DNA of 64,000 bases, taken from positions 1,922,001-1,986,000 of the forward strand of contig NZ_CP046453.1 of assembly GCF_009734405.1 (NCBI RefSeq), read 5' to 3'. Source of the DNA: Corynebacterium comes (lineage in GTDB: Bacteria; Actinomycetota; Actinomycetes; Mycobacteriales; Mycobacteriaceae). Of the stretch, positions 4,561 through 23,741 are shown one piece after another. Each line of letters begins with the position of its first letter. Position 1 is the first letter of the stretch. The translations under genes were made by a program, and so were the position numbers. Under the pieces are notes generated by a model, which saw only the letters and a list, made by a program, of their open reading frames with translations, ran no database searches and was not told the DNA's origin.

Positions 4561-7314
4561 ATGGCAGAAGACCTGAACGCTAACGGCGCCAAGGACGACT
4601 CCAACTTCCCGCTCATTCGCGACGGCGTTGCTTCGTACCTCAACGACTCGGACCCCGAGGAGACCCGCGAGTGGATGGACTCCCTCGACGGCCTGCTCTC
4701 GGAGTCTTCGCCGGAGCGAGCCCGTTACCTCATGCTGCGTCTTCTGGAGCGTGCCTCGGCCAAGCGTGTCCCGCTGCCGAACCTGACCTCCACTGACTTC
4801 GTCAACACCATCCCCACCACCATGGAAGTCGACTTCCCGGGCGATGAGGACATGGAGAAGCGCTTCCGCCGCTGGATCCGCTGGAACGCCGCCGTCATGG
4901 TGCACCGCGCCCAGCGCCCCGAGATCGGCGTCGGTGGCCACATCTCCACCTACGCCTCCGCCGCCCCGCTCTACGAGGTCGGCTTCAACCACTTCTGGCG
5001 CGGCAAGGACCACCCGGGCGGCGGCGACCAGATCTTCTTCCAGGGACACGCCTCCCCCGGCATGTACGCACGCGCCTTTCTCGAGGGTCGCCTGAGCGAG
5101 GAGGACCTCGACGGCTTCCGCCAGGAGGTCTCCCGCGGCGAGGGCAACGGCATCCCCTCCTACCCGCACCCCCACGGCATGCCCGATTTCTGGGAGTTCC
5201 CGACCGTCTCCATGGGCCTGGGCCCGATGGACGCGATCTACCAGGCACGCTTCAACCGCTACCTGCACAACCGCGGCATCAAGGACACCTCCCAGCAGCA
5301 CGTGTGGGCCTTCCTGGGTGACGGCGAGATGGATGAGCCGGAGTCCCGTGGCCTCATCCAGCACGCGGCGCTGAACAACCTGGACAACCTCACCTTCGTG
5401 GTCAACTGCAACCTGCAGCGCCTCGACGGCCCCGTCCGCGGCAACACCCAGATCATCCAGGAGCTGGAGTCCTTCTTCACGGGCGCCGGCTGGAATGTCA
5501 TCAAGGTGGTCTGGGGCCGCGAGTGGGACGAGCTGCTGGCCAAGGACAAGGACGGCGCCCTGGTCACCGTCATGAACACCACCCCGGACGGCGACTACCA
5601 GACCTTCAAGGCCAACGACGGCGCCTACGTCCGCGAGCACTTCTTCGGCCGCGACGAGCGCACCCTCAAGCTGGTCGAGGACATGAGCGACGAGGAGATC
5701 TGGGCCCTGCCCCGCGGTGGCCACGACTACCGCAAGGTCCACGCCGCCTACAAGCGCGCCATGGAGACCAAGGACAAGCCGACCGTCATCCTCGCCTTCA
5801 CCATCAAGGGCTACGGCCTGGGCCACAACTTCGAGGGCCGCAACGCGACCCACCAGATGAAGAAGCTGACCGCCGAGGACCTCAAGGCCTTCCGCGACAA
5901 GCAGTCCATCCCGATCCCCGACGAGGCCCTCGACGCCGACCCGTACCTCCCGCCGTACTACCACCCCGGCGAGAACGCCCCGGAAATCCAGTACATGAAG
6001 AAGCGCCGCGAAGAGCTCGGCGGCTTCCTCCCGGAGCGTCGCTCCACCTACACCCCGCTGCAGGTCCCGGACCTGGACAAGCTGCGTTCCGTCCGCAAGG
6101 GCTCCGGCAAGCAGGAGGTCGCCACCACCATGGCGCTCGTGCGCACCTTCAAGGAGCTCATGCGCGACAAGGAGCTGGGCAGGCGCGTCGTGCCCATCAT
6201 CCCGGACGAGGCCCGCACCTTCGGCCTGGACTCCTGGTTCCCGACCCTGAAGATCTACAACCCGCACGGCCAGAACTACGTCCCCGTCGACCACGACCTG
6301 ATGCTGTCCTACCGTGAGGCCACCGACGGCCAGATCCTCCACGAGGGCATCAACGAGGCCGGCTCCATGGCCTCCTTCATCGCCGCCGGCTCCTCCTACG
6401 CCACCCACGGCGAGGCGATGGTGCCGCTGTACATCTTCTACTCGATGTTCGGCTTCCAGCGCACCGGCGACAGCGTCTGGGCCGCCGCCGACCAGATGGC
6501 ACGTGGCTTCCTCATCGGCGCCACCGCCGGCCGCACCACCCTGACCGGTGAAGGCCTGCAGCACATGGACGGCCACTCCCAGATCCTGGCCTCCACCAAC
6601 CCGGGCGTCGTCTCCTACGACCCGGCCTTCGCCTACGAGATCGCCCACCTGCTCCACGAGGGCATCGACCGCATGTACGGCCCGGGCCGCGGCGAGAACG
6701 TCATCTACTACCTCACCGTGTACAACGAGCCGGTCTCCCAGCCGGCCGAGCCGGAGAACCTGGACGTCGAGGGCCTGCACAAGGGCATCTACCTCTACTC
6801 CCCGGCTTCCGATGCCGGCGCCGACGGCCACGAGGCATCCATCCTGGCCTCCGGCATCGGCATGAGCGCCGCGCTGCGCGCCCGCGAGATCCTGGCTGCG
6901 GACTATAATGTCCAGGCCAACATCTTCTCCGTCACCTCCTGGGTCGAGCTGGCCCGCGACGGTGCGGCGAAGAACAAGGAGCAGCTGCGCAACCCGGCCG
7001 CCGAGATCGAGGTCCCCTTCGCCACCAAGCAGCTCAACCAGGTCGACGGCGAGACCTTCGTGGCGGTCTCCGACTTCGCCACCGACCTGCAGGAGCAGAT
7101 CCGTGCCTTCGTCCCGGGCGAGTACATCGTCCTGGGTGCCGACGGCTTCGGCTTCTCCGACACCCGCCCGGCCGCGCGCCGTTACTTCAACATCGACGCC
7201 GAGTCCGTCGTCGTCGCCGTCCTCATGGGCCTGGCCCGCGAGGGCAAGATCGACATCTCCGTGGCCGCCCAGGCCGCCGAGAAGTTCAACCTGGACGACC
7301 CGACCGTGGTCTAG
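4561..7314 (+). CDS. aceE: Pyruvate dehydrogenase E1 component (homodimeric)
   Basis: A 917-residue thiamine-diphosphate enzyme, the usual length for the family. It decarboxylates pyruvate and acetylates the lipoyl domain of E2 to feed the TCA cycle. The ThDP/Mg2+ motif is visible as [14 protein letters not shown] to ALNNLDN (GDG...NN, around residues 254-280). The N-terminal region ([13 protein letters not shown]) matches AceE of actinobacteria. In corynebacteria E1 stands alone, away from E2, and works in a mixed pyruvate/2-oxoglutarate dehydrogenase complex. Codon use is strongly C-ending, typical of highly expressed core genes. Cytoplasmic; followed by a hairpin. Confidence 0.98.
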
Positions 7315-7329
7315 TTTCCCTGGTTCGAT

Positions 7330-7382
7330 GAAAACCGCCCACTACGCTGCCCCTTCCCGGGGTGGTGTGGTGGGTGGTTTTC
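7330..7382 (+). terminator. Hairpin after aceE
   Basis: GAAAACCGCCCAC pairs with GTGGGTGGTTTTC around a second complementary segment (GCCCC/GGGGT). The stem begins 16 bases after the aceE stop. The T run is part of the stem, so termination efficiency is uncertain. Confidence 0.7.
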
Positions 7383-7407
7383 GTTGTGCGGCGGGGCTGG
7401 GGGCGGT

Positions 7408-7740
7408 TTCGCACCCCCCTAAGGTGCTTGTCCGGTGGCTCCCGAGGCCTTGAGGGGGTGCGAGATTCCGGAACCCGGCCGGGCCGCGCTTCTCGACGCC
7501 CCCGGTCGGCTATCCCTGCGATCCATCCACTTCGCACCCTCCCAAGGCCCTCGTCCGGCACATCCGGAGGCCTTGCAGGGGTGCGAGATTCCGGAACCCG
7601 GCCGGGCCGCGCTTCTCGACGCCCCCGGTCGGCTATCCCTGTGCTCCATCCACTTCGCGCCCTCCCAAGGCCCTCGTCCGGCGCATCCGGAGGCCTTGCA
7701 GGGGTGCGAAGTGGATGGCCCGCTTCTCGACGCCCCCGGT
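7408..7740. repeat. Tandem array of a 123-bp intergenic repeat
   Basis: Two near-identical 123-bp units start at 7445 and 7568 (each beginning AGGCCTTG) and a third, internally deleted unit starts at 7691; a diverged partial unit lies at 7408-7444. Each unit contains AAGGCC...GGCCTT arms that can form a hairpin. At 7646-7718 the array forms a long hairpin with outer arms CCATCCACTTCGC and GCGAAGTGGATGG. No gene is convincing in this stretch; an open frame through it is a by-product of the repeats. Confidence 0.85.
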
Positions 7741-14525: not shown

Positions 14526-14559
14526 GCCACCCCCGGCCGAAGAATCGACCGGGGGTGGC
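14526..14559. terminator. Strong hairpin at the left boundary of the tRNA-CAU element
   Basis: GCCACCCCCGG and CCGGGGGTGGC form a perfect 11-bp stem with a 12-base loop, ending 11 bases before the left att repeat. Probably a bidirectional terminator insulating the element from chromosomal genes. Confidence 0.7.
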
Positions 14560-14570
14560 GGTATGACACG

Positions 14571-14584
14571 GTGGGGCCACCGGG
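14571..14584. repeat. att site, left copy
   Basis: GTGGGGCCACCGGG duplicates the 3' terminal bases of the tRNA at 23668-23741 and marks the left end of the integrated element. Confidence 0.75.
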
Positions 14585-14665
14585 TGCTCAACTCGTTGGC
14601 CTGTATCCGCTGGTCAGGCCCTATCTTCCCTGGTCTCAGGCCACTCTCTGGTCCGGTTTCTGGTC

Positions 14666-14815
14666 TCACCCCCGCCAGGGGAGGTAAGCGAGACCTAGTT
14701 TCCAGACCGAAAACCTAGCCTCTCTCTCCCGCTCCCGGCACTCTTCGACCGCCAGGCTCTCGCGGACGAAATGACACACGCGGCGCTCGATGCCTTCGTG
14801 GACAGCGACGCTCAC
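14666..14815 (-). CDS. Possible 49-residue basic protein
   Basis: A GTG-initiated frame encodes VSVAVHEGIERRVCHFVRES then a charged helix ending WKLGLAYLPWRG. The composition looks protein-like, and this is the only open frame between the left att site and the HNH gene. No ribosome site is evident and the family is unknown, so it could be spurious. Confidence 0.3.
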   Translation of the reverse strand: MSVAVHEGIERRVCHFVRESLAVEECREREREARFSVWKLGLAYLPWRG

Positions 14816-14843
14816 AGTCTACCGGCCTGCGACAAGGCCCTAA

Positions 14844-15450
14844 AGGTTAACAACAGGTAAACAAACTGAAAAACGCTCTCTTCTAAGGCGCTGAACAGGG
14901 CCAGGTGACACCGGTGTACCGCTGGAGGCTCAGAGGCCGTCTCCGTGGCGTACGGCGCGTGCTCTGCGCACTCTCAGCGCTCGCTGGAACGCAGCCTGTG
15001 CCAGAACGGGGTCGGAGATCTGCGGGTGGAGGTTGCGTAACCGGTTGTCGGTCTTTACTCCGCTCAGATGAACGATCCTTGCGCCGGGGATGTCGCCATA
15101 GAAGGCGCGGGCCTCCAGGACGTGAACGTTGTGGTCCGCCTTCTTGCCGTCGTCATCGGTGAGATGGACCTTCGGGTAGCCCTGAGAACTGAGGCCCCCG
15201 CTCAGCAGGGAATGGTTCTCTTTGCGGCGGACCTGACCGTTGTTGCTGACCTCGTAGCGGGAATGGTTGTCAATATCTCTCCAAATAGTCATATCATTAG
15301 AATATATGATCGACTCCCCCCAAGGGTCGTCCGTCACAATCTCCAGCACACGAGGGACGCTCTAATCAGACCCCCGGGGGTATCCCCCTCCCCCTAACCG
15401 CAGGTCAGAGACGTTTGTCAAGTCCGACAAGGTTAACAACAGGTAAACAG
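14844..15450 (+). repeat. Direct repeat flanking the HNH gene
   Basis: AGGTTAACAACAGGTAAACA occurs at 14844-14863 and 15430-15449, each followed shortly by TGAAAAACG. Related sequences (CTCTCGTCTAAGCG) recur at 16197-16210. The repeats bracket the HNH gene and lie at the edge of the origin region. Confidence 0.6.
14930..15349 (-). CDS. NUMOD4/HNH-type endonuclease-like protein
   Basis: A 139-residue protein with a NUMOD4-like DNA-binding motif (WRDIDNHSRYEVSNNGQVRR) followed by an HNH-type region (GARIVHLSGVKTDNRLRNLH). The usual second His of the HNH motif is replaced (VHLSG instead of VHHxD), so nuclease activity is doubtful. Such genes are frequent in phages and satellites, as homing nucleases or packaging-associated factors. 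The start is uncertain: GTG 15349 gives full length, while ATG 15292 begins exactly at the NUMOD4 motif. Confidence 0.7.
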   Translation of the reverse strand: MLEIVTDDPWGESIIYSNDMTIWRDIDNHSRYEVSNNGQVRRKENHSLLSGGLSSQGYPKVHLTDDDGKKADHNVHVLEARAFYGDIPGARIVHLSGVKTDNRLRNLHPQISDPVLAQAAFQRALRVRRARAVRHGDGL

Positions 15451-15642
15451 TTTGAAAAACGGCTCTGTGTGCGCGTTTGAGCGTTTGGGGGTTGCCGGAA
15501 CCCTCCGAGAGGGACGTTAGGCCGTCAGGGGGGAAATCAGGCCGGTTCCCGCAGGTCAGAGAGTCGGTTTCGGCACCTTTGGCACCCCTTTTTGAACGTG
15601 ATGTGCATCACATTCCCCTGTGACCTCCAACACACCGGCTTT

Positions 15643-15830
15643 TATGTCCACGTTTTCAGACATAGGTTATGTCCACGTTTTCAGACATAGGTTATGTGCA
15701 ACTTTTCAGACATAGAATCTTATGTCCGACTTTCCACACCTAATGTCCGAGATCTCAAAGATAAGTGCTTATGTCTCTTATCTTGGACATAGAACCTCAG
15801 ATCTGCACTATGTCCATTACTTCAGACATA
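15643..15830. repeat. Iteron array of the element's replication origin
   Basis: Units of the form TATGTCCACGTTTTCAGACATA start at 15643, 15668 and 15693 (25-bp period), with diverged copies at 15721, 15742, 15770 and 15809. Each unit is itself a dyad (TATGTC...GACATA). The array is followed by an AT-rich segment, the usual order in iteron-type origins, and the element encodes its own primase-helicase, the likely binder. Confidence 0.75.
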
Positions 15831-15865
15831 GACCCCGATCGTCGATCTCGCGAAGACATCGACTC

Positions 15866-15936
15866 AATCTATCTATTAAATCAATCTATCTATTAAATCA
15901 ATCAATTTATTAAATCAATATCAATTACTAAATCAA
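15866..15936. other. AT-rich segment, probable DNA unwinding element
   Basis: About 70 bases of A/T-rich DNA with direct repeats (CTATCTATTAAATCAAT twice at 17-bp spacing, then further ATTAAATCAAT copies) in an otherwise GC-rich genome, right after the iterons. Probable melting site of the origin. The next 600 bases (to 16537) are gene-free, with short CAGCAC, CAGAACA and CATGCGCCCAT repeats. Confidence 0.6.
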
Positions 15937-16537
15937 CAGCACAGCACAGCACACTGCACCACAGCACGCACCACAGCCACCACACCACAGCAGCCACCGC
16001 CACACACCACACCTTAGCCACGCACCGGTACAGCCTCCGCTCAGGCCTCCGCTCAGGTAGAGGGGGGGTCTGCAGCCGCTCCTTGCAGCCGCTCTATATA
16101 ACGGGGGGGTACAGAAGGCCGACCTCAGAACAGAACAAAACAAAAACTCAGAACAGAACAGAACAACCGTTCACCTAGCGAACAGTTCTTAAAACGCTCT
16201 CGTCTAAGCGATTAAAGACCCGTAACCTAGCCTCTCCCCTATCTGAACCCTCTCAGGCGCTCAGCCGCTCACACAGCGCCGCTCCGACCCCGTCACGCTT
16301 CAGGACAGCCGCCACAGAGACGCAGCCGCTCGGAGAGACGTAGCCGCAACCGCAGCCGCAGCCACCACGACACCGCCACCAGAGACACAGAGAAGGCACC
16401 GCTCCCGCCAGCTTCGGAGAGAGGCCTGATCCATGCGCCCATCCATGCGCCCATCCATGCGCCCACCGGAGGGGGGGTGCCAGGATCTCGACAGAGCCAC
16501 GGCTACAGGTACGGGGGGGTGTCATAGCCGGGATTCC

Positions 16538-16801
16538 GCCAACCTCTGCCAACCAATTGCCAACCTCCTGCCAACCTCTAGAAGACGTAGCCGCAGGTCA
16601 GAGCCAGTGCCTGCCAACCTGCCAACCTCAGGCGATATGTGGCTCTACTCAGGGAAGGGGAGATTGCTTTTCTATATAGGGATAAACTCTAAAAAGGTTG
16701 GCAGGTTGGCAGAAATAGAGAAGAAACACCCTTTGACCTGTTTAAATGCCTCTGCCAACCTAACGAAATAGGTTGGCAGAAGGTTGGCAGAAGGTTGGCA
16801 G
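16538..16801. repeat. Twelve copies of GCCAACC in two orientations
   Basis: GCCAACC occurs directly at 16538, 16547, 16558, 16570, 16613, 16621 and 16754, and inverted (GGTTGGC) at about 16696, 16704, 16771, 16782 and 16793. The last inverted copies abut the stop codon of the primase gene. The 12 copies in 264 bases suggest a second protein-binding array (origin handcuffing or repressor site). Confidence 0.75.
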
Positions 16802-16802
16802 G

Positions 16803-19346
16803 TCATTCCTCGTTGAGGGTCCAGCCCCTGTACACGCGCTTATCGTTCACTCGGTCCTTGTCGTCAGCGTGCCCCTGATCCCTAAACCAACGGTTGATCT
16901 TCATGCTTAGTGCCTTCTCTGCGATCGTGAGATCTCCGGTCACATCGCGATAGGATCTCGCCATATCCTCCGTCCGTACGTAGTCGTCCGGGTCTCCGGT
17001 GCGCTCTAGCATCTGGAAGAACACCATTGACGGGTCCGCCTCCGCAATGAACCGGGCGGTTGCCTGTGCCACCAACGGCGGGTAGTCCTCCTGCTCCAGT
17101 CCTTCAGACATCGACAGGGCGAAACCTTCCAGCAGCCAATTCAGGAACCACACCTTCTCTTCCTCGTGCTCTCTCCACTCAGAATTGATGTGCGGTTGGG
17201 CCTCCTTGACGGCCTTCTTAGCCTGAGTGAACGGGATGACAGCGAGACGACGTTCAACGCCTGAGTCGTGCTCAAAAGAAAACACGCGGTTGGTCATGAA
17301 CGTAATTGTGTTGCCGTCCTGCTTCACCACGTTGTTTGAATGCAGGGCGCGACCGCTCCGGCTCTCCGTCGCTCTCTTGATGGCGGACGCGTCGATCTTC
17401 GTGCCCTCGTCCGTCTCGTTGACAAACGTCATACGGGTGGTCAGAGACTTCGTGTACTCCGGATCTGGCTTGCTCGCGCTACCCTTCTTGAACTGTTCCG
17501 GGGTGATCTGGCTCGCGTACACGTCTTCTCCCAGCACGGACATCACGCTATCTACGATGGACCCCTTGCCGGACCCTCCGGGGCCGAACCAGACGAAGAA
17601 CTTGTGAGCCTTGTTCTTACCGAACATGGAATAGCCCAGGGCCTTCTGAAGGAACTGACGGGTGTCCTCGTCGGGCTGAATCACCTTCAACAGCCGCTCA
17701 GTGTGGGTCTCCTTGGCAATGGGCGACTGCTCGCGGTACTCCAGAGACTTCAGCCCAGCACGGATGTCCAGAGTCAGAGACTTCGTGACGGCATCCTCGT
17801 ACTCTCGCGGGCGCAGCCACGACTCCAGGCCTCCGTCCGGGTTGTCGATGACGGCCTGAAGGTCAAGCACCTCGTCTCCGACTCCCAACAGGTACGGGTT
17901 AGCGTCAATCTTGCTCGCGGTGAACTTTCGGCCCATGTCCCGTACAGCGTTCGCCGTGTTCTCGAACAGCGCGACCGGACGGTTGGCCTCACACAGAGCC
18001 AGGGCCTTACTCAGCACAGCCTTCCCAGCCTTGTCCTCGTCGCTGTCGTCCTCGAACTGAATCCGGTAACGGTGGATCTCAGGCATGACGGTCTTCTCCA
18101 GGATCTCGCGCAGATCCCCGTACTGCAAGGTCTCACCCACTGCCATGTTTAGGATTGAGTCCTCACTTCCAGAGTTGCGAACGGTGACCAGTTCGGGGCA
18201 CAGCAGCGCGATCAACCGGGGGACGGCCAGCGGCGCGGGCATCCGCATGGAGCGATTGATCTTCTCGGTGAGGTCCTCGTGAGCCTTAGCGGCCTTCTGT
18301 GCACCCGTGAGCAACGTGAAGCCCGTCAGCAGCGCCGGGCTGTACTTAACCAGGAACGGGGTGGCCTTCTTGTGCTCGATGTCGCCGCGCGTCTTGTTGA
18401 CGGCTCCAAGGTAATTGCGGGCGTACTCGGTCTCCGCAGTCTCCTTGTAGTCACGCTCAGCCTCAGCAAAGAACTTCGCCTTCAACGCCTCGATAGCGGC
18501 CTTGAGGCCGGGCTGACCGTCCAGAACGGCGTAGCGCACGGCCCACCACAGAGAGTCGTTGAGGGTGTCGTGAGCGTTGCCCACCATCGCCTCCAACTTC
18601 GGCTCCAGGCCAGTAAGGAAACCAGCGGACGGGGCATCCGCCCATCCCGGCGCTACCTTGGACAGCCACTCGTCGGCCTCAGTGTTGCCGAAGTACTCGG
18701 AGGGCGCGTGACGCTTGATCAGATTTCCGCGCTGCAGGTAGTTGATCCACGCCTGAGGCAGGACCGGCAGATCCTTGACGTTGGGGATCTCGATCTCTTC
18801 GTCTCCGATGTACCAGCGGTACATCTCCCCTTCGACCTCAGAGGGCCACACTGCGCTGTAGCGGTGATTCTTCTGGATCACTTCCACGTCGGCGCACACC
18901 TTAGAGGCCCACTTCAGCCCTCGCGGGACAAGGAAGAAGTACTGCGCAGCCGGGGAGTCAACGCCACGGCGTGTCGAACGGGGAATTGCCTTGAGCGGGA
19001 GTTCCCCGAGTTCATCCATGAGTTCGACAAGGTTCTGCATTCCCTTCTTGTCTCGATACTCATCGACATCGAGAGAAATGACATCGTAGTCGCCGGTGAT
19101 GTCCATACGCAGACCGAGATTAAAGTCTCCCATTTCGCGGTCCCATGCCTCGCGGGTGACTTCTTCACTGACGGTCTCGATGTCTCCGGTGAAACCAGTT
19201 CTCGGCGGGAACTTGCTCCCGCAAGGGAGAGGGAACGGAGTTACCCAGCCTTTAAAGATGTACTGCTCAAAAGGCTTGACGCCCTGCTCAGATATGGTAT
19301 AATCATTCATAGTGACTTCTTCTCCTTCATGGTTGTTTGAGGTCAT
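16803..19346 (-). CDS. Primase-polymerase/SF3 (D5-type) helicase
   Basis: An 847-residue replication protein. The N-terminal prim-pol domain shows the substrate region PFPLPCGSKFPPRTGFTG and the metal motif DVISLDVDEY (around residue 90). The middle resembles D5-N, and the C-terminal SF3/P4-type helicase has Walker A GPGGSGKGS (around residue 587), Walker B-like TFVNETDEG, and sensor region NTITFMTNRVFSFEHDSG. It should recognise the nearby origin, unwind it and prime replication of the excised element. Start ATG 19346 has GAAGGAAG upstream; ATG 19310 with AAGGAG is an alternative. Confidence 0.92.
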   Translation of the reverse strand: MTSNNHEGEEVTMNDYTISEQGVKPFEQYIFKGWVTPFPLPCGSKFPPRTGFTGDIETVSEEVTREAWDREMGDFNLGLRMDITGDYDVISLDVDEYRDKKGMQNLVELMDELGELPLKAIPRSTRRGVDSPAAQYFFLVPRGLKWASKVCADVEVIQKNHRYSAVWPSEVEGEMYRWYIGDEEIEIPNVKDLPVLPQAWINYLQRGNLIKRHAPSEYFGNTEADEWLSKVAPGWADAPSAGFLTGLEPKLEAMVGNAHDTLNDSLWWAVRYAVLDGQPGLKAAIEALKAKFFAEAERDYKETAETEYARNYLGAVNKTRGDIEHKKATPFLVKYSPALLTGFTLLTGAQKAAKAHEDLTEKINRSMRMPAPLAVPRLIALLCPELVTVRNSGSEDSILNMAVGETLQYGDLREILEKTVMPEIHRYRIQFEDDSDEDKAGKAVLSKALALCEANRPVALFENTANAVRDMGRKFTASKIDANPYLLGVGDEVLDLQAVIDNPDGGLESWLRPREYEDAVTKSLTLDIRAGLKSLEYREQSPIAKETHTERLLKVIQPDEDTRQFLQKALGYSMFGKNKAHKFFVWFGPGGSGKGSIVDSVMSVLGEDVYASQITPEQFKKGSASKPDPEYTKSLTTRMTFVNETDEGTKIDASAIKRATESRSGRALHSNNVVKQDGNTITFMTNRVFSFEHDSGVERRLAVIPFTQAKKAVKEAQPHINSEWREHEEEKVWFLNWLLEGFALSMSEGLEQEDYPPLVAQATARFIAEADPSMVFFQMLERTGDPDDYVRTEDMARSYRDVTGDLTIAEKALSMKINRWFRDQGHADDKDRVNDKRVYRGWTLNEE

Positions 19347-19534
19347 GGTGTTCTTCCTTCTGCCTGTGGTGGGGCAATTAGTAGTTGATTAAGACCTCTG
19401 GAGTAGTGACCAGGGGTCTTTTTCGCATTCCGGGGTGGAATAGCGGTGCCTTGACTCGGTCATGAACCGCCGCCGCCTTTAGCGGAGTCAGGCTGTACTG
19501 CAATCGACTTGAGCGCCGGGGCGCTCTTTGGGGG
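19347..19534. other. Gap upstream of the primase with hairpin
   Basis: No gene is visible. A stem AGACCTCTGG/CCAGGGGTCT with one mismatch per arm lies at about 19390-19424; on the leftward strand it could act as an attenuator between the preceding small gene and the primase. Confidence 0.4.
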
Positions 19535-19969
19535 TTAGAGGATCGACCAATTAGATGGCGTATAGACGGGCTTAGGGATACGCAACATGCACCCCTCCGC
19601 CGCGTCTGCGTCCTCCAGGAACTTCAGCCAGACAGCGGTCACCGCGTCATAGGCCTCCATCGTTCTCAGCCATTCCTCGGTGCCGTTCTCCGCCTCTACA
19701 GCCTCCGGGAACTCTCGGCGCATGATCTCTTCTCCGGTAACAACATGAGAAGCAAAATCGAAAATGTCATCGCTGTACTCTTTGGCCTGAACCGGGATAT
19801 TGCGACTGAATCCAACCAGCGACTCAGCCAGCGGCTTAATGACCTCACTCCACGCGCAGCCGTAGCACTGACCGACCATGAACTTGACCGTCGTCTCTAG
19901 GGCCTGTAGTCGGTGATCTGCCTTAACCGCGCGGGTGTAGTCGGCGGTTACGTAATCCTCAAATCTCAT
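19535..19969 (-). CDS. Hypothetical protein of the satellite-like element
   Basis: A 144-residue acidic protein (MRFEDYVTADYTRAVKADHR...), mostly helical, with three Cys residues, two of them in QCYGCAW (CxxC) and one in EGCMLRI. No known family. It sits between the small early genes and the primase in the leftward transcript, so a replication accessory or phage-interference role is possible, but this is inference only. A purine-rich GGAGAAGGAA segment precedes the ATG. Confidence 0.65.
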   Translation of the reverse strand: MRFEDYVTADYTRAVKADHRLQALETTVKFMVGQCYGCAWSEVIKPLAESLVGFSRNIPVQAKEYSDDIFDFASHVVTGEEIMRREFPEAVEAENGTEEWLRTMEAYDAVTAVWLKFLEDADAAEGCMLRIPKPVYTPSNWSIL

Positions 19970-20071
19970 TGTTCTTTCCTTCTCCTTGGTGTGTAATCGG
20001 GGCCTGCGTGAGCCGTAGGCGGCTCAGCAGGGTTTAAATGGGTACTTGGTCGCTCACGGCTACTCGAAGCC

Positions 20072-20176
20072 TTACAGGGCCTCGAATTCCAATTCCAACT
20101 TGTAGCGCTTGAAGTCCAGCCATGAGTTCCAAGCGAGAAGCGCGACCACTAAAGCCAGGGCAGCAATCGAGATCAC
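20072..20176 (-). CDS. 34-residue membrane peptide
   Basis: GTG 20176 overlaps the stop of the upstream gene (GTGA). The product VISIAALALVVALLAWNSWL then DFKRYKLELEFEAL is one hydrophobic transmembrane helix followed by a charged tail. Single-pass microproteins of this kind occur in phages and satellites (holin-like, superinfection exclusion, toxins). Function unknown. Confidence 0.5.
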   Translation of the reverse strand: MISIAALALVVALLAWNSWLDFKRYKLELEFEAL

Positions 20177-20325
20177 AGTCTTTGCTCCACTCTCTCCAGG
20201 CGGGAGGCAATCTCGTTGACCTTCTCCAGGCGGTTGGCGATCTTCGCCAGGGCCTCTAACTCGAACTTCTTGACCGGGTCAAGGTTGTCCAGGACTTCGC
20301 GGGGGAGATCTGTGTGGATGTTCAC
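20173..20325 (-). CDS. 50-residue coiled-coil protein
   Basis: GTG 20325 directly follows the TAA of the HTH gene. The product (VNIHTDLPREVLDNLDPVKK, FELEALAKIANRLEKVNEIA, SRLERVEQRL) has heptad spacing of Leu/Ile/Val and is probably a coiled coil that oligomerises. Its stop overlaps the next start. Together with the 34-residue membrane peptide it resembles the two-gene small modules of phages, but no function can be assigned. Confidence 0.55.
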   Translation of the reverse strand: MNIHTDLPREVLDNLDPVKKFELEALAKIANRLEKVNEIASRLERVEQRL

Positions 20326-20511
20326 TTATGCACCCGCCTTGACGTGGCGGGCGGCGATCCACTCGTTCAGTTCGTTCTCCGGGTACTTGACGGTCTTGGC
20401 GCTGTAGCGCACGTAGGACGGCCCGGTCCCGTTAGCCCTCCACTCGTGGAGAGTGCGGGTGGTGATCCCCAGAATTTCGGCGGTCTTGGTGGTGGTGAGC
20501 ATCTCGCTCAT
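20326..20511 (-). CDS. AlpA/excisionase-type HTH protein
   Basis: A 61-residue protein starting MSEMLTTTKTAEILGITTRT at ATG 20511 (AAGGAAG site). Helix-turn-helix and wing (LHEWRANGTGPSYVRYSAKT, VKYPENELNEWI) match MerR-like excisionase/AlpA proteins. It is the first gene of the replication operon, so it is a good candidate for an activator of that operon or the directionality factor. The leader has a CCCCC-GAAT-GGGGG hairpin (20529-20542) directly before the ribosome site, and a TATACT -10 box at 20572-20577 (minus strand). Confidence 0.75.
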   Translation of the reverse strand: MSEMLTTTKTAEILGITTRTLHEWRANGTGPSYVRYSAKTVKYPENELNEWIAARHVKAGA

Positions 20512-20763
20512 TGTGTCTTCCTTCCTTACCCCCATTCGGGGGATACGTGGTCTTGCTTGTTGACTGTCATTAGTATAACATGCCCCGGCTCAGCAAGATT
20601 CCTTGATTCTCTCGTTTCCTACTTAGGCACTGTGACGGGAAATGGTCCCCGTGTAGGTCACGCCGTTATCTCACCGTGATCTACTGTTAACCTGTCCGTT
20701 ATCGTTTCGTTATCTACTGTTCATCTGTTGTTCACTCTGAGGCCCTGTTTTGAGCAGTAGAAT

Positions 20764-20789
20764 GCCCCGACTCAGCTAAGAATCGGGGC
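20764..20789 (-). terminator. Terminator of the leftward early operon
   Basis: GCCCCGA and TCGGGGC form a perfect stem with a 12-base loop right after the stop of the 52-residue gene on the minus strand, separating the integrase-side operon from the replication operon. Confidence 0.75.
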
Positions 20790-20794
20790 GTTAC

Positions 20795-20953
20795 TTACTT
20801 CTCGTCGGTGTCCTCGTGCCCGGCGCTCCGGGCTGTGTCCGAGTTCTTGAGATACCTTGCCAGGCCGGACCCCTTGGAGAACTTCCCGCTCTTGTCCCGG
20901 TCTTTGCTCTTGTCGTCGGTCAGATACCGGCTCAGGCCTTCCGGTGCCCTCAC
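20795..20953 (-). CDS. 52-residue protein with duplicated motif
   Basis: GTG 20953 overlaps the stop of the preceding gene as GTGA. The product is very hydrophilic, with two copies of a G-L-(S/A)-R-Y-L motif (GLSRYL near the N-terminus and GLARYL after a Lys/Asp/Ser-rich linker DDKSKDRDKSGKFSKGS). The repeats may be two short peptide docking motifs. Family unknown. Confidence 0.55.
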   Translation of the reverse strand: MRAPEGLSRYLTDDKSKDRDKSGKFSKGSGLARYLKNSDTARSAGHEDTDEK

Positions 20954-21690
20954 TTGTCGATCACCAGACCTCGGGGGGCTGTGAAGGCCACCCGGTGGAT
21001 CTCTGCTCCCACCTTGGCCTCGGTGGAAACGGTCCACCCGTTGGCACGGACTCGACCGGCTACCGCCCGTGCTTCTCGGAGAGCGCCGGTAGAACATCCG
21101 CCAGAGACATCGAACACCAACGAACGGCCTTCCTCGCGGCCTTCTCCCGTCCAGAAGGTGTTACGGCTCCCGCTGGCTTGTCCTAAGGCTTCAGCCAGGC
21201 TCCGGGGCGTAGCCTTCTCAACCGGGGCGGTAGCAGTGAACGCCTCCACCCCTCGCGGGCCGTTGACCTCGCCTACGTCCCAGCCCGCAGCTCGGAGACG
21301 GGAGAGATCTTCGATCACCGGCTTATTGAAGTAGGGGTTACGGCTGGCCTCAAACCGGATTGTGCGTCCATCGTTGATTACGCTGGCGGTATCCCAGTTC
21401 GCACGCGGGGCAACAAGAAGAAACTCAGCCCGCTCAATCACGGACGCACCCGCCTTGAGAGGCTCCCTCTTCGGTGCCGGGGGCGTGATCCGCCACGCGG
21501 GGGCCACGTACTCCGTGTGCCACCCTCGATCCCGCAGACGGCGGCGGTTGTCGTTGAAGACCTCCCGGTCAGTGAAGGTTTCAGCCGCTGTCGGGTCGAT
21601 GAGAATAGCGCCGTCCTGCTCGGTGGCGGTCTCCCACACCTTCGCCGGTCTGATGCTCTGTGCCTTAGCAGTCTCGATCAGGTTGCTCAC
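20950..21690 (-). CDS. Hypothetical protein with repeated DNA-mimic or binding-like module
   Basis: A 246-residue protein starting at GTG 21690, overlapping the stop of the HTH gene (GTGA). It seems to contain three similar units of about 60-70 residues, each with a basic/Arg-rich helix followed by a glycine-tryptophan turn (RRRLRDRGWHTEYVAP, LSRLRAAGWDVGEVNG, AGRVRANGWTVSTEAK). The spaced R-x-x-GW pattern suggests an internally duplicated small alpha/beta domain. No known family; the strongest orphan gene of the element. Confidence 0.7.
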   Translation of the reverse strand: MSNLIETAKAQSIRPAKVWETATEQDGAILIDPTAAETFTDREVFNDNRRRLRDRGWHTEYVAPAWRITPPAPKREPLKAGASVIERAEFLLVAPRANWDTASVINDGRTIRFEASRNPYFNKPVIEDLSRLRAAGWDVGEVNGPRGVEAFTATAPVEKATPRSLAEALGQASGSRNTFWTGEGREEGRSLVFDVSGGCSTGALREARAVAGRVRANGWTVSTEAKVGAEIHRVAFTAPRGLVIDK

Positions 21691-21860
21691 TGGTTCTCCT
21701 CTTCGTTGAGCCATGCTTCTACGTCCTCGGTGCGGTATCTGACCAACTTTGAGTTCAACTTGATCCACTTTGGTCCTCCGCCGTCCGGTGTGCGTCGCCA
21801 CTTCGCCACGGTGGCCGGTGCGACTCCAAGGAGAGTCGCGAGTTCGCGTGTGCTGTACAT
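21687..21860 (-). CDS. 57-residue helix-turn-helix protein
   Basis: ATG 21860 after GAAGGGG. The product MYSTRELATLLGVAPATVAK then WRRTPDGGGPKWIKLNSKLV is a compact excisionase/HTH_17-type winged helix ending DVEAWLNEEENQ. The stop overlaps the start of the next gene. One of three small HTH proteins in the element; it is a candidate excisionase or early regulator. Confidence 0.7.
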   Translation of the reverse strand: MYSTRELATLLGVAPATVAKWRRTPDGGGPKWIKLNSKLVRYRTEDVEAWLNEEENQ

Positions 21861-21939
21861 ATCAATACCCCTTCATTCATCATGTGTCCCTATAACTCAT
21901 TTGATACTACCATATAAGTTTTATGGTGCGTTTGAGCGA

Positions 21940-22167
21940 TCACATGGCGACGGCGGGGATGAACTGACCTGCAGAGAGCACGTCGGATAAACGCACACGG
22001 TTAGCGCGACCGAGACGCAGCACCGGCACTTTGCCAGCGGCGATAAGGCGCTCAACCGTGCGGGTGGAGAGTTCAAAGTGGGCAGCGGCGGTCTTCACGC
22101 TCACCCACGGTTCTTCGCCATCACGGGGAATGGCGGTAGAGATGTCAATGACGTTGTTCTTGGACAT
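21940..22167 (-). CDS. Excisionase-family HTH protein
   Basis: A 75-residue protein (MSKNNVIDISTAIPRDGEEP...) with the HTH_17/excisionase pattern WVSVKTAAAHFELSTRTVER and LIAAGKVPVLRLGRANRVRL. GAAGGGTCC precedes the ATG. It lies immediately downstream of the integrase gene, separated by a stem-loop, and is the best candidate for the recombination directionality factor. Confidence 0.75.
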   Translation of the reverse strand: MSKNNVIDISTAIPRDGEEPWVSVKTAAAHFELSTRTVERLIAAGKVPVLRLGRANRVRLSDVLSAGQFIPAVAM

Positions 22168-22185
22168 GAAAAGGACCCTTCGGAT

Positions 22186-22209
22186 GGGAGAGCGCTCTTA
22201 GGCTCTCCC
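22186..22209 (-). terminator. Hairpin between integrase and excisionase genes
   Basis: GGGAGAGC and GCTCTCCC form a perfect 8-bp stem with an 8-base loop about 110 bases after the integrase stop and just upstream of the next gene. No T run on the minus strand, so it may also be a regulatory leader structure. Confidence 0.5.
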
Positions 22210-22320
22210 TGAGCTGGAAGGCATCGGGCCTTCGGAAGGGTTGTTCAGCATTATCGCATATCCGGACCGCTTTGTCTAGTTGTCCCGTCCGTCTGAGGCC
22301 GTCTGAGGGGGCTTGAGACG

Positions 22321-23532
22321 CTATTGACCGGCGCGGGTTAGTGCTTCTTCCAGAGCCTCCGCAGCACGGTTCTCGTAGCCGTCAGCCGCTCGTTGGTACT
22401 CCATGAGCTGTTCGATGGTCTCGTGGCCCATCAGCCGCCGTGCCTCTTCCAGGCTGACCGGGGCACCTCTTCCGCTCTCATGGTCCGGGGAGACTAAGCG
22501 GGTGCCGTAGAAGCGCCTGCAGTCGTGAGGGGTGATGTCCGGCCTCCCTGCCAGTTCAGCCGCTCGGTTGAAGCGGTTACGGAAGTTCGTGTCCATCATC
22601 TGTGCTCCGGTCTGCGTGGTGATGACCAGAGCCTCAGCGCCGGGAGCCATAAACTCCCGTGCGTGCTCCCGTAGCGCCTCCGAGACGCTCAGCGGGAGCA
22701 CGATGTCTCGGTTACCCGCCTCCGTCTTCGGAGTGGACAGGGAGACCATCACCTGTCGTTTCGTCACTGTGTCGGTCATCCGCTGGACGTTACGGCGGAT
22801 ACGCAGGGTGACCGGGCCGTCCTTCTTCGCCAGGCCGACAAGATCCTTCCTCCGTAGCTCCAGCAGCTCCCCCAGACGGAGGCCAGACCACAGCAGCAGC
22901 ATCACACCGACCTGCAGCCGGGGGGAGATGTTATCCGCCAGCGATTTCGCCTCCGTCAGGGAGATCAACGCCCTGTCGCGGTTCTGAGACCGGGGAACCT
23001 TACTCGCACCCCGCACCTTCACCGGGTTGTCGGAGATAACCTCCAACTCGTTGACCGCGTACTCAAAAGCTGTGTGAAGCCGCTTGTAGGCGCTGGAGTT
23101 CGTTGACTTCTGGTCAGGCCAGCAGGTGAGCACCTGTGACCACCACAGTTGAATCCGCTTCCGGTCCACCTCGACCACCGGCACGTCCGCCAGAGAGTCA
23201 AACTCACCCGGCATCGACTCCCTCAGCACGCGGGAGTTGAGCTTCTGGCGGTGGCTCTGAATCGTGGACTCCTTGAGATGCGGACTCGACAGCCAGAGGT
23301 CGATTAGCTCAGAGACGGTCACGCTCGCGGCCTTCGCCTTCTCCACCCGTTCAGCCGGAGGGGTCCAGTCTCCGTCGCGGATCAGCCCCCGCTCCTTCTC
23401 CAGCCAGGCGGCGGCGTGGCTCTCCTTCACGAACGGCTCCGGAGAGCTGTGCTTCCGTCCCGCATATTGGTACCGCGCCGACCACTTGCCTTCGCCGGTC
23501 GCTCGCACGGTGCCGAACTTCTTGGGGGCCAT
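22321..23532 (-). CDS. int: Tyrosine recombinase/integrase
   Basis: A 403-residue integrase, start ATG 23532 (MAPKKFGTVRATGEGKWSAR) chosen because this is the usual beginning of the arm-binding domain; in-frame codons extend upstream to 23601. Catalytic residues are in LLLWSGLRLGELLEL (Arg), ITPHDCRRFYGTRL (His-x-x-Arg), LMGHETIEQLMEYQ (His and Tyr). The gene is next to the 3' end of the tRNA with anticodon CAU, its attachment site. The region upstream of the start carries repeated TCTGGTCT sequences that recur near the left att site. Confidence 0.95.
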   Translation of the reverse strand: MAPKKFGTVRATGEGKWSARYQYAGRKHSSPEPFVKESHAAAWLEKERGLIRDGDWTPPAERVEKAKAASVTVSELIDLWLSSPHLKESTIQSHRQKLNSRVLRESMPGEFDSLADVPVVEVDRKRIQLWWSQVLTCWPDQKSTNSSAYKRLHTAFEYAVNELEVISDNPVKVRGASKVPRSQNRDRALISLTEAKSLADNISPRLQVGVMLLLWSGLRLGELLELRRKDLVGLAKKDGPVTLRIRRNVQRMTDTVTKRQVMVSLSTPKTEAGNRDIVLPLSVSEALREHAREFMAPGAEALVITTQTGAQMMDTNFRNRFNRAAELAGRPDITPHDCRRFYGTRLVSPDHESGRGAPVSLEEARRLMGHETIEQLMEYQRAADGYENRAAEALEEALTRAGQ

Positions 23533-23632
23533 GTCTGGTCTCGTTTCTGGTCTGGTGTGGTCTAGAAATGTCGGTTTGTGTCGGTTCCTGTCGCTGACCA
23601 AAGATTACCGAAACATGTCCTGACATGGGAAA

Positions 23633-23661
23633 CCCCCGCTCTCCGGCGTGGAGAACGGGGG
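23633..23661. terminator. Hairpin at the right boundary of the element
   Basis: CCCCCG-c-TCTCC pairs with GGAGA-a-CGGGGG, with a 5-base loop, six bases inside the right att repeat. It insulates the integrase gene from the tRNA. Confidence 0.65.
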
Positions 23662-23666
23662 CAAGT

Positions 23667-23680
23667 GTGGGGCCACCGGG
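23667..23680. repeat. att site, right copy (tRNA 3' end)
   Basis: GTGGGGCCACCGGG forms the 3' end of the tRNA and is repeated at 14571-14584 at the other end of the element. Confidence 0.8.
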
Positions 23681-23741
23681 ACTTGAACCCGGGACCTACG
23701 GATTATGAGTCCGCGGCTCTAACCAACTGAGCTATAGCCCC
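23668..23741 (-). tRNA. tRNA with anticodon CAU (Met elongator or Ile2)
   Basis: Minus-strand cloverleaf: acceptor GGGGCTA/TGGCCCC, D arm TAGCTCAGTTGGTTAGAGC, anticodon stem GCGGA/TCCGT with loop CTCATAA (anticodon CAT), T arm with loop TTCAAGT. Elongator Met and lysidine-modified Ile2 tRNAs share this loop and cannot be told apart by eye; initiator tRNA is excluded by the acceptor stem. CCA not encoded. Confidence 0.93.

Follow-up and report, generated by a model that had tools for sequence, protein, structure and literature searches.

Most of what is known of phage satellites that lack capsid genes comes from Staphylococcus, enterobacteria and Vibrio. The phage-inducible chromosomal islands (PICIs) are described by criteria that include an integrase, a replication module and a master regulator in conserved order; they typically measure about 12–15 kb, and their attachment (att) site is stated never to be occupied by prophages (PMC6092414). 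The island SaPIbov5 also redirects capsids (PMC5052747, PMC6092414), and CpmB of SaPI1 has a short C-terminal RIIK motif in common with the helper scaffold, which it uses to bind the capsid protein (PMC5644958). P4-like satellites are packaged by their helper by way of cohesive-end (cos) sites (PMC10690885). Among the Actinomycetota, candidate PICIs of Mycobacterium (PMC10654092) and MulchRoom/MiniFlayer of Streptomyces (PMC10690885) are reported to encode capsid genes, and a survey of actinobacterial prophages merely supposes that small elements could be satellites (PMC10023795). Judged by titles and the opening parts of abstracts, with the SatelliteFinder survey (PMC10085698) not covered, we found no such element described in Corynebacterium. 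Here we report on a 9.1-kb integrative element in Corynebacterium comes, contained in a stretch of 64,000 nucleotides (the window; bases 1,922,001–1,986,000 of a 2.80-Mb contig) from a genome that has a second contig of 83.5 kb.

We consider it highly probable that this element is an integrative satellite with its own replication module, which would hijack the cos packaging of a Zierdtviridae-like helper and interfere with the capsids of that helper. The grounds for this reading are the tRNA/att site, the integrase together with a replication module, the lack of recognised virion or conjugation genes, and homology to phage cos. The original prediction had arrived at a corynebacterial phage satellite from gene content, and the cos alignment, a terminase small subunit (TerS) in a sibling element and a scaffold-tail motif now point the same way.

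An integrative element at a tRNA-Met gene

The element is bounded by the 3′ end of a tRNA-Met gene and by a copy of its last 14 nucleotides, CCCGGTGGCCCCAC, that begins 9,083 bp past the tRNA end; the att repeats originally claimed are exact copies of one another. Chance is an unlikely explanation of the repeat, since a terminator-like hairpin lies beyond the far copy, as expected of an old tRNA 3′ flank, and since the arrangement recurs in an element of another species (G156), with the identical repeat 8,976 bp from a tRNA-Met. The hairpin is probably the original terminator of the tRNA; among the 12 terminator-like sites in the 9.3 kb scanned (7.1 expected) it has the most pairs (15).

Three congeners of other species share the flanks (G019, G029 and G018, the G018 locus being divided between two contigs), and none of ten element proteins was found at this tRNA in the stretches fetched from them (tblastn, E up to 0.01). 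The att-bounded segment, for which the original prediction had counted on polymorphism among relatives, is missing from the examined stretches of all three. A clean empty site was not seen in these congeners, since other DNA occupies it in G019 (1.8 kb) and G029 (1.5 kb). In G019 the same tRNA is followed by a different stretch (L050:2793-4594) with transposase-like and lysin-like fragments by eye, which suggests that the tRNA site is an integration hotspot. At 14725–14820 on the plus strand lies a block 80–83% identical to G156 and G185; an open frame on this strand is partly conserved by eye and is perhaps the remnant of a gene of these relatives.

Related elements were collected by a primase search of 201 congeneric genomes, which gave 13 matches in 11 genomes, the window included. 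Six relatives in five genomes (G156, G185, G091a, G091b, G157 and G003) were studied in loci of 40 kb; the six weakest matches were left out (G112 twice, G032, G174, G054 and G191, all at E 4e-15 or worse and confined to the helicase part).

A block homologous to phage cos

Near the far end, outside recognised genes, the window, G156 and G185 share conserved blocks that were found before any phage end was fetched. A profile of these three blocks, independent of phage save that its ends were trimmed after the phage had been seen, matches the cos junctions of two Corynebacterium phages of the Zierdtviridae, Darwin (67.7-kb permuted genome) and Kimchi1738 (joined ends), at E 1.3e-11, and its next-best match in the 67.7 kb of Darwin stands at E 1.3. 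Both phages have C. vitaeruminis as listed host; P1201 has C. glutamicum. In the joined ends of P1201 (4.6 kb) the junction is matched at E 0.0012 by the three-element profile and at 1.1e-7 by a six-element profile, which adds the blocks of G091a, G091b and G003 and is not independent because these were chosen with the phage cos as query. In the P1201 record the final 10 nt, CCTTCGGTGC, carry the annotation of cohesive end. At the aligned place the same 10 nt are found in Kimchi1738 and G091b, CCTACGGTGC in Darwin and G156, CCTCCGGTGC in G091a and G003, CCTCGTGTGC in the window and TCCCGTGTGC in G185.

By blastn, two blocks align with the Darwin junction, that of G185 at 77% over 83 bp (E 1.9e-9) and that of G091b at 80% over 41 bp (E 1.5e-4); weak stretches appear in G156, G091a and G003 (E 0.08 to 0.9). 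A reverse search with a cos profile of Darwin and Kimchi1738, run up to E 10 on 387.5 kb (the window, the second contig and the six 40-kb relative loci), gave 11 matches headed by G185 (4.6e-9), G091b (8.8e-6), G156 (1.3e-4), the window (0.015) and G091a (0.022); four others, from E 1.5 upward, are not significant. When the G185 and window blocks were compared by blastn with phage records, which are cut at cos, the best E-values were 0.6 and 0.1; eight of ten window-block matches lie less than 200 bp from the right end of the phage record, but at E 5. A scan of viral contigs for a narrow form of the block gave nothing useful. The comparison of packaging sequences (cos/pac) with local phages that had been proposed at the outset aligns the block to the cos junction of Corynebacterium phages. 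By its sequence the block is homologous to the cos of Zierdtviridae phages of Corynebacterium, modestly so when that of the window is taken alone.

At the left end of the phage genome cos is followed by TerS, and the same order recurs in G091a; in the window and G156 an HNH gene takes this place. The TerS behind the cos block of G091a (Pfam Terminase_7 3.6e-12; Darwin TerS 9.8e-13) is closest, among phage proteins, to the gene 1 products of Darwin, Kimchi1738 and others (43% along the full length), and Pfam and phage annotation both call the Darwin/G091a protein family TerS. A Zierdtviridae-like phage is the probable helper.

A scaffold-tail motif in a small protein

A further line of evidence concerns a 52-aa protein with two copies of a short motif, GLSRYL and GLARYL. 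A six-frame scan of Darwin with a slightly wider pattern returned three matches, one of them in an annotated gene, at the C-terminus of gp18 (KEGLGKYLPQNDK). This protein is annotated as hypothetical and encoded between the head protease and the decoration/major head protein genes; in MerCougar and GuyFagieri the corresponding genes carry the annotation 'scaffolding protein'. The C-termini of P1201 gp30 (QGMSRYLEDAN) and of the MerCougar scaffold (RGFGRYLPSND) bring to three of four the phage lineages in which a scaffold-position protein ends in the motif. Small open reading frames (ORFs) with two or three copies of [GS][LMFV]x[RK]YL are present in five of the seven elements, that of the window among them; in G185 one copy is intact and a stop interrupts the second, and there is no copy in G003. 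Beyond the G156 protein, three database homologues of the 52-aa protein have two copies each. In the remainder of the window, as in Darwin and the second contig, no stop-to-stop segment with at least two copies was found. The 52-aa protein is thus, we infer, a putative mimic of the helper scaffold tail, in what would be a close parallel to SaPI1 CpmB.

The gene just before it encodes a 246-aa orphan protein, whose AlphaFold 2 model (mean pLDDT 80, pTM 0.43) comprises three strand-helix-strand-strand repeat units. Its family forms three clusters in a database of 5.8 billion proteins, and its profile retrieves three of 242 congeneric genomes, those of the window, G156 and G185. In the G091 elements its place is taken by 280-aa proteins distantly homologous to it (hhalign probability 94.8, E 5.1e-8); their own profile retrieves the two G091 elements alone from the same genomes. 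There was no match to the 246-aa protein in 50,697 phage records (tblastn, E 0.01); against Darwin alone a weak trace appears (32% over 63 aa, E 0.019). The protein likewise has no match in a plasmid collection, where the element DNA gave nothing useful, and neither did scans of genome contigs with the primase and the 246-aa family.

On balance we find it plausible that Corynebacterium satellites evolved the CpmB strategy independently, tandem tail copies binding the capsid protein multivalently, with small capsids or stalled assembly as the outcome and cos routing the element into heads. It is possible, if rather doubtful, that the element is a cos-packaged satellite whose 52-aa protein does not act on capsids, the motif being coincidental or for another partner and multimers filling full-size heads. 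The motif comprises only about six residues, and EcCICFT073, which has no capsid morphogenesis genes, is described as being packaged in full-size heads (PMC6092414). Against this stand the recurrence of the motif in small ORFs of most elements and its C-terminal place in most of the phage lineages, as well as the order of discovery: the motif was noted in the elements ahead of the phage scan, the pattern being widened later (N, then M, the M after P1201 had been seen).

Points against the satellite reading

Several results weigh against a cos-hijacking, capsid-interfering satellite. The proposed cohesive end of the window differs from that of P1201 at three of ten positions. The window block alone scores modestly (E 0.0049 with Darwin, 0.00054 with Kimchi1738), ranks at only E 0.015 in the reverse search and is missed by blastn with the Darwin cos region as query; at E 0.01, blastn against the permuted Darwin genome has its junction matched by G185 and G091b only. 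In the reverse search the G157 element (E 1.0) and the G003 locus (1.1) are not significant, and the junctions of MerCougar, Lollipop1437 and GuyFagieri, members of the phage family from Gordonia/Rhodococcus, are unmatched. PHROGs labels both the G091a and the Darwin TerS 'minor tail protein'. The scaffold of GuyFagieri ends in RGMGQWASEKS, with GMGQWA in place of the motif. Foldseek searches with the 246-aa model are unconvincing (best PDB match E 0.0086, template-modelling (TM) score 0.18; best viral match E 4.1e-4, TM 0.22).

Finally, no helper was found in this genome. Searches for PF04860 and PF03354 were negative, but say nothing on a Zierdtviridae helper because the portal and large terminase subunit (TerL) of Darwin fall outside these families: the portal matches PF05133, not PF04860, and TerL has no Pfam family at E 0.01. 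Among the helper searches, that for TerS alone therefore bears on a resident helper; in 201 genomes it returned the element of G091 itself and a weak match in G154, and none in this genome.

Relatives and alternative origins

The integrase, the helix–turn–helix (HTH) proteins and the primase-helicase stand in the same order in the window, G156, G185, G091a, G091b and G157. G156 has an integrase 87% identical to that of the window at the same kind of tRNA, and the identities of its 246-aa, 52-aa, 69-aa and HNH proteins are 75%, 65%, 71% and 65%; in its primase the relationship is limited to the N-terminal 38% of the length. In G185 a 246-aa protein 95% identical to that of the window is combined with another integrase at a tRNA-Val, and an insertion-sequence (IS)-like insertion is seen by eye. 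G091 has two elements, of 8.5 kb at tRNA-Val (G091a) and of 16.4 kb at tRNA-Met (G091b), and that of G157 measures 14.0 kb at tRNA-Val. The integrase and primase of G003 are related, and neither a tRNA nor element ends were found there within 40 kb. Such modular exchange across several tRNA sites is as expected of active mobile elements.

The cargo of two siblings is likely to be anti-phage, going by family matches: G091b carries (L025:1579-7860) a type III restriction pair (N6_N4_Mtase 2.2e-20; ResIII 2.4e-15) and a NOV_C protein, and in G157 a DUF4352 protein weakly matches PHROGs for superinfection exclusion (4e-6). An Excalibur protein is encoded in G156, and a similar one, by eye, in G185; in the element of the window the cargo place holds the HNH gene only. 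A pair of 544-aa and 136-aa ORFs in G157 (L027/L026) looks by eye like an IS21-type insertion.

These relatives bear on two further explanations. A decayed Zierdtviridae-type prophage that has lost its structural genes would account for a primase, an HNH protein and a cos that are all related to such phages. It is very improbable, and was rejected, on the strength of a compact plan that is conserved across several Corynebacterium species with different integrases and tRNA sites; G156, with its nearly equal size, kind of site and integrase, and the 246-aa protein, unmatched in the phage records, speak against it as well. An integrative mobilisable element (IME) or actinomycete integrative and conjugative element (AICE), moved by the MobF plasmid of the strain or another conjugative element, is likewise highly unlikely and was rejected, for although AICEs also combine a tRNA site with Prim-Pol and the second contig has a MobF relaxase region, no relaxase or FtsK-type translocase family matched the ten proteins (an origin of transfer, oriT, was not searched for) and the cos homology is left unexplained.

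The MobF relaxase region lies within the first 20 kb of the second contig (L054-L058, 83.5 kb), and plasmids of Corynebacterium marinum and C. occultum match it at 80–86% identity; the contig is probably a plasmid. Some of its ORFs resemble heavy-metal ATPases by eye.

Genes and repeats of the element

The features of the element are collected in Table 1. Recognised genes all lie on the minus strand, the integrase first and the HNH gene last.

Table 1. Features of the Corynebacterium comes element and its boundaries (window positions)
Feature	Position	Strand	Remarks
tRNA-Met gene, anticodon CAT, integration site	23667..23741	-	ARAGORN
att core, integrase end	23667..23680		last 14 nt of tRNA gene, CCCGGTGGCCCCAC
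Tyrosine integrase	22321..23532	-	Pfam Phage_integrase 1.6e-12; phrog_1 4.3e-46
75-aa HTH_17/excisionase-like protein	21940..22167	-	HTH_17 5.8e-7; TIGR01764 30.5 bits (cut-off 28.8)
57-aa HTH_17 protein	21687..21860	-	Pfam; stop overlaps next start
246-aa orphan, three repeats	20950..21690	-	stop overlaps next start
52-aa protein, two copies G-L-x-R-Y-L, proposed scaffold-tail mimic	20795..20953	-	
69-aa HTH_17 protein	20326..20535	-	HTH_17 3.5e-10
50-aa orphan, helical-looking by eye	20173..20325	-	45% identical in G156
34-aa hydrophobic, membrane-like peptide ORF	20072..20176	-	left out of family scans
144-aa orphan	19535..19969	-	no family match
Prim-Pol primase fused to P4-type helicase, 847 aa, replication protein	16803..19346	-	Prim-Pol 4.6e-12; phrog_1156 5.7e-92
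11 TGCCAACC iterons, inverted groups around AT-rich centre	16546..16801		candidate replication origin
Three AT-rich repeats, 17 bp apart	15864..15919		
TATGTC...GACATA palindromic repeats	15642..15832		operators or second iteron set
cos-like block	15300..15399	-	aligned to joined ends of phages Darwin and Kimchi1738
Proposed cohesive end CCTCGTGTGC	15346..15355	-	P1201 record annotates CCTTCGGTGC at aligned place
120-aa NUMOD4/HNH_3 endonuclease	14930..15292	-	directly after cos-like block
att core, far end	14571..14584		exact 14-bp copy of CCCGGTGGCCCCAC
Terminator-like hairpin just outside far att	14526..14559	-	15 pairs, 12 G-C

The gene content put forward at the outset, with an integrase at the tRNA end, several HTH proteins (three of HTH_17 type), a primase-helicase and an HNH protein, is borne out by family matches. 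As had also been claimed, virion and transfer genes are absent as far as families tell: ten ORFs, the 34-aa peptide being excluded, have no match to capsid, portal, tail, relaxase or FtsK-type families in Pfam, PHROGs and NCBIfam. The four orphans among them match nothing in these three collections, and no hidden structural or conjugation gene was recognised in their number.

The integrase ORF is open to 23601, and its ATG start at 23532 was chosen as in G156. Overlaps of 4 bp join the genes of the 57-aa, 246-aa and 52-aa proteins in series, and likewise those of the 50-aa and 34-aa products. The top PHROG of the 75-aa protein is phrog_57, 'terminase small subunit' (2.3e-6), with excisionase next (5.9e-5); the Pfam and NCBIfam label is HTH_17/excisionase, and the TerS label would reflect a shared HTH. 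Matches in PADLOC are limited to the three HTH proteins and the HNH protein. All three HTH proteins (20326–22167) match mad1, the HTH protein of the MADS defence system (3.6e-7 to 8.8e-6); no other MADS gene is among the matches, and the shared HTH_17 fold is probably all that they reflect.

For the HNH ORF, 15292 is the most likely start, because the sequence upstream is the cos-like block. In tblastn its product aligns over 90 aa, at 36%, with positions 7286-7552 of Darwin, which fall in the HNH gene gp14. PADLOC labels it a homing endonuclease (5.3e-9); it may serve in homing, in packaging or as a nuclease against the helper.

Between the helicase and HNH genes lie 1.5 kb of repeats. The 11 copies of TGCCAACC compare with a mean of 0.45 and a maximum of 3 in 200 two-base-block shuffles. 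The iteron origin that had been predicted stands in so far as the iterons are present, but there are two repeat systems rather than one, the palindromes forming the other. Two direct repeats of 43 nt, 84% identical (14833–14875 and 15419–15461), bracket the HNH gene and the cos-like block, and their GTTTTTCA part (minus strand) is found again in G156 and G185.

A proposed life cycle and its meaning

In the satellite reading, infection by the helper would cause the element to excise, and the excised element would replicate from its iteron origin with its own primase-helicase. Because a helper-type cos is carried, the helper terminase is proposed to package concatemers of the element, cutting at 15346/15345. 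The 52-aa protein would vie with the helper scaffold for the capsid protein, acting together with the 246-aa protein, so that capsid assembly is redirected or blocked, and the particles would bring the element into new cells. Sibling elements bring further genes, for a TerS, for type III restriction or for a protein resembling those of superinfection exclusion.

The family brings with it named likely relatives of the helper with listed hosts, a candidate packaging site that is mapped, and a short peptide with a testable capsid target. If the reading is true, capsid piracy at the level of the scaffold would have one more independent case, this time in the Actinomycetota, and there would be a route for DNA movement between corynebacteria; redirecting the capsid by a tandem, multivalent tail and a partner protein of three repeats would be new.

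Comparison with known systems

Held against PICIs, the element and its siblings keep the integrase, the HTH proteins and the primase-helicase in one order, and are smaller than is typical, at 9.1 kb in the window, 9.0 kb in G156 and 8.5 kb in G091a. With regard to prophages at the att site, the 1.8-kb insert at the same tRNA in G019 holds a lysin-like fragment, judged by eye. The term 'PICI-like' used at the outset therefore fits as a way of working, but membership is not proven.

The phages Darwin and Kimchi1738 (Ceetrepovirus) and P1201 (Chunghsingvirus) have a related cos, primase and scaffold-tail motif and a relative of the sibling's TerS, and the HNH protein resembles one of Darwin's; as phages of 66–71 kb with full virion genes they are likely to be related to the helper rather than to the element. 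In contrast to the capsid-encoding satellites and candidates of the Actinomycetota, no capsid, portal or protease gene of its own is recognised here. P4-like satellites are alike in their P4-type primase-helicase and iterons; the present protein differs in its Prim-Pol N-terminus and reaches 80.5 bits with TIGR01613, below the cut-off of 108.7, and no P4 morphogenesis gene is among the matches.

The cos-type islands SaPIbov5 and EcCICFT073 resemble the element in having an integrase, HTH regulators, a replication module, no structural genes and a helper-like cos. Going by their descriptions, the element is set apart by a scaffold-tail repeat instead of Ccm, an actinobacterial host, a Zierdtviridae-like helper and a length of 9.1 kb. 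For the putative capsid module the counterpart is CpmA/CpmB of SaPI1, where a small protein with the C-terminal motif of the scaffold is likewise encoded beside another protein; in the Corynebacterium elements the motif is a different one and stands in tandem, in two to three copies.

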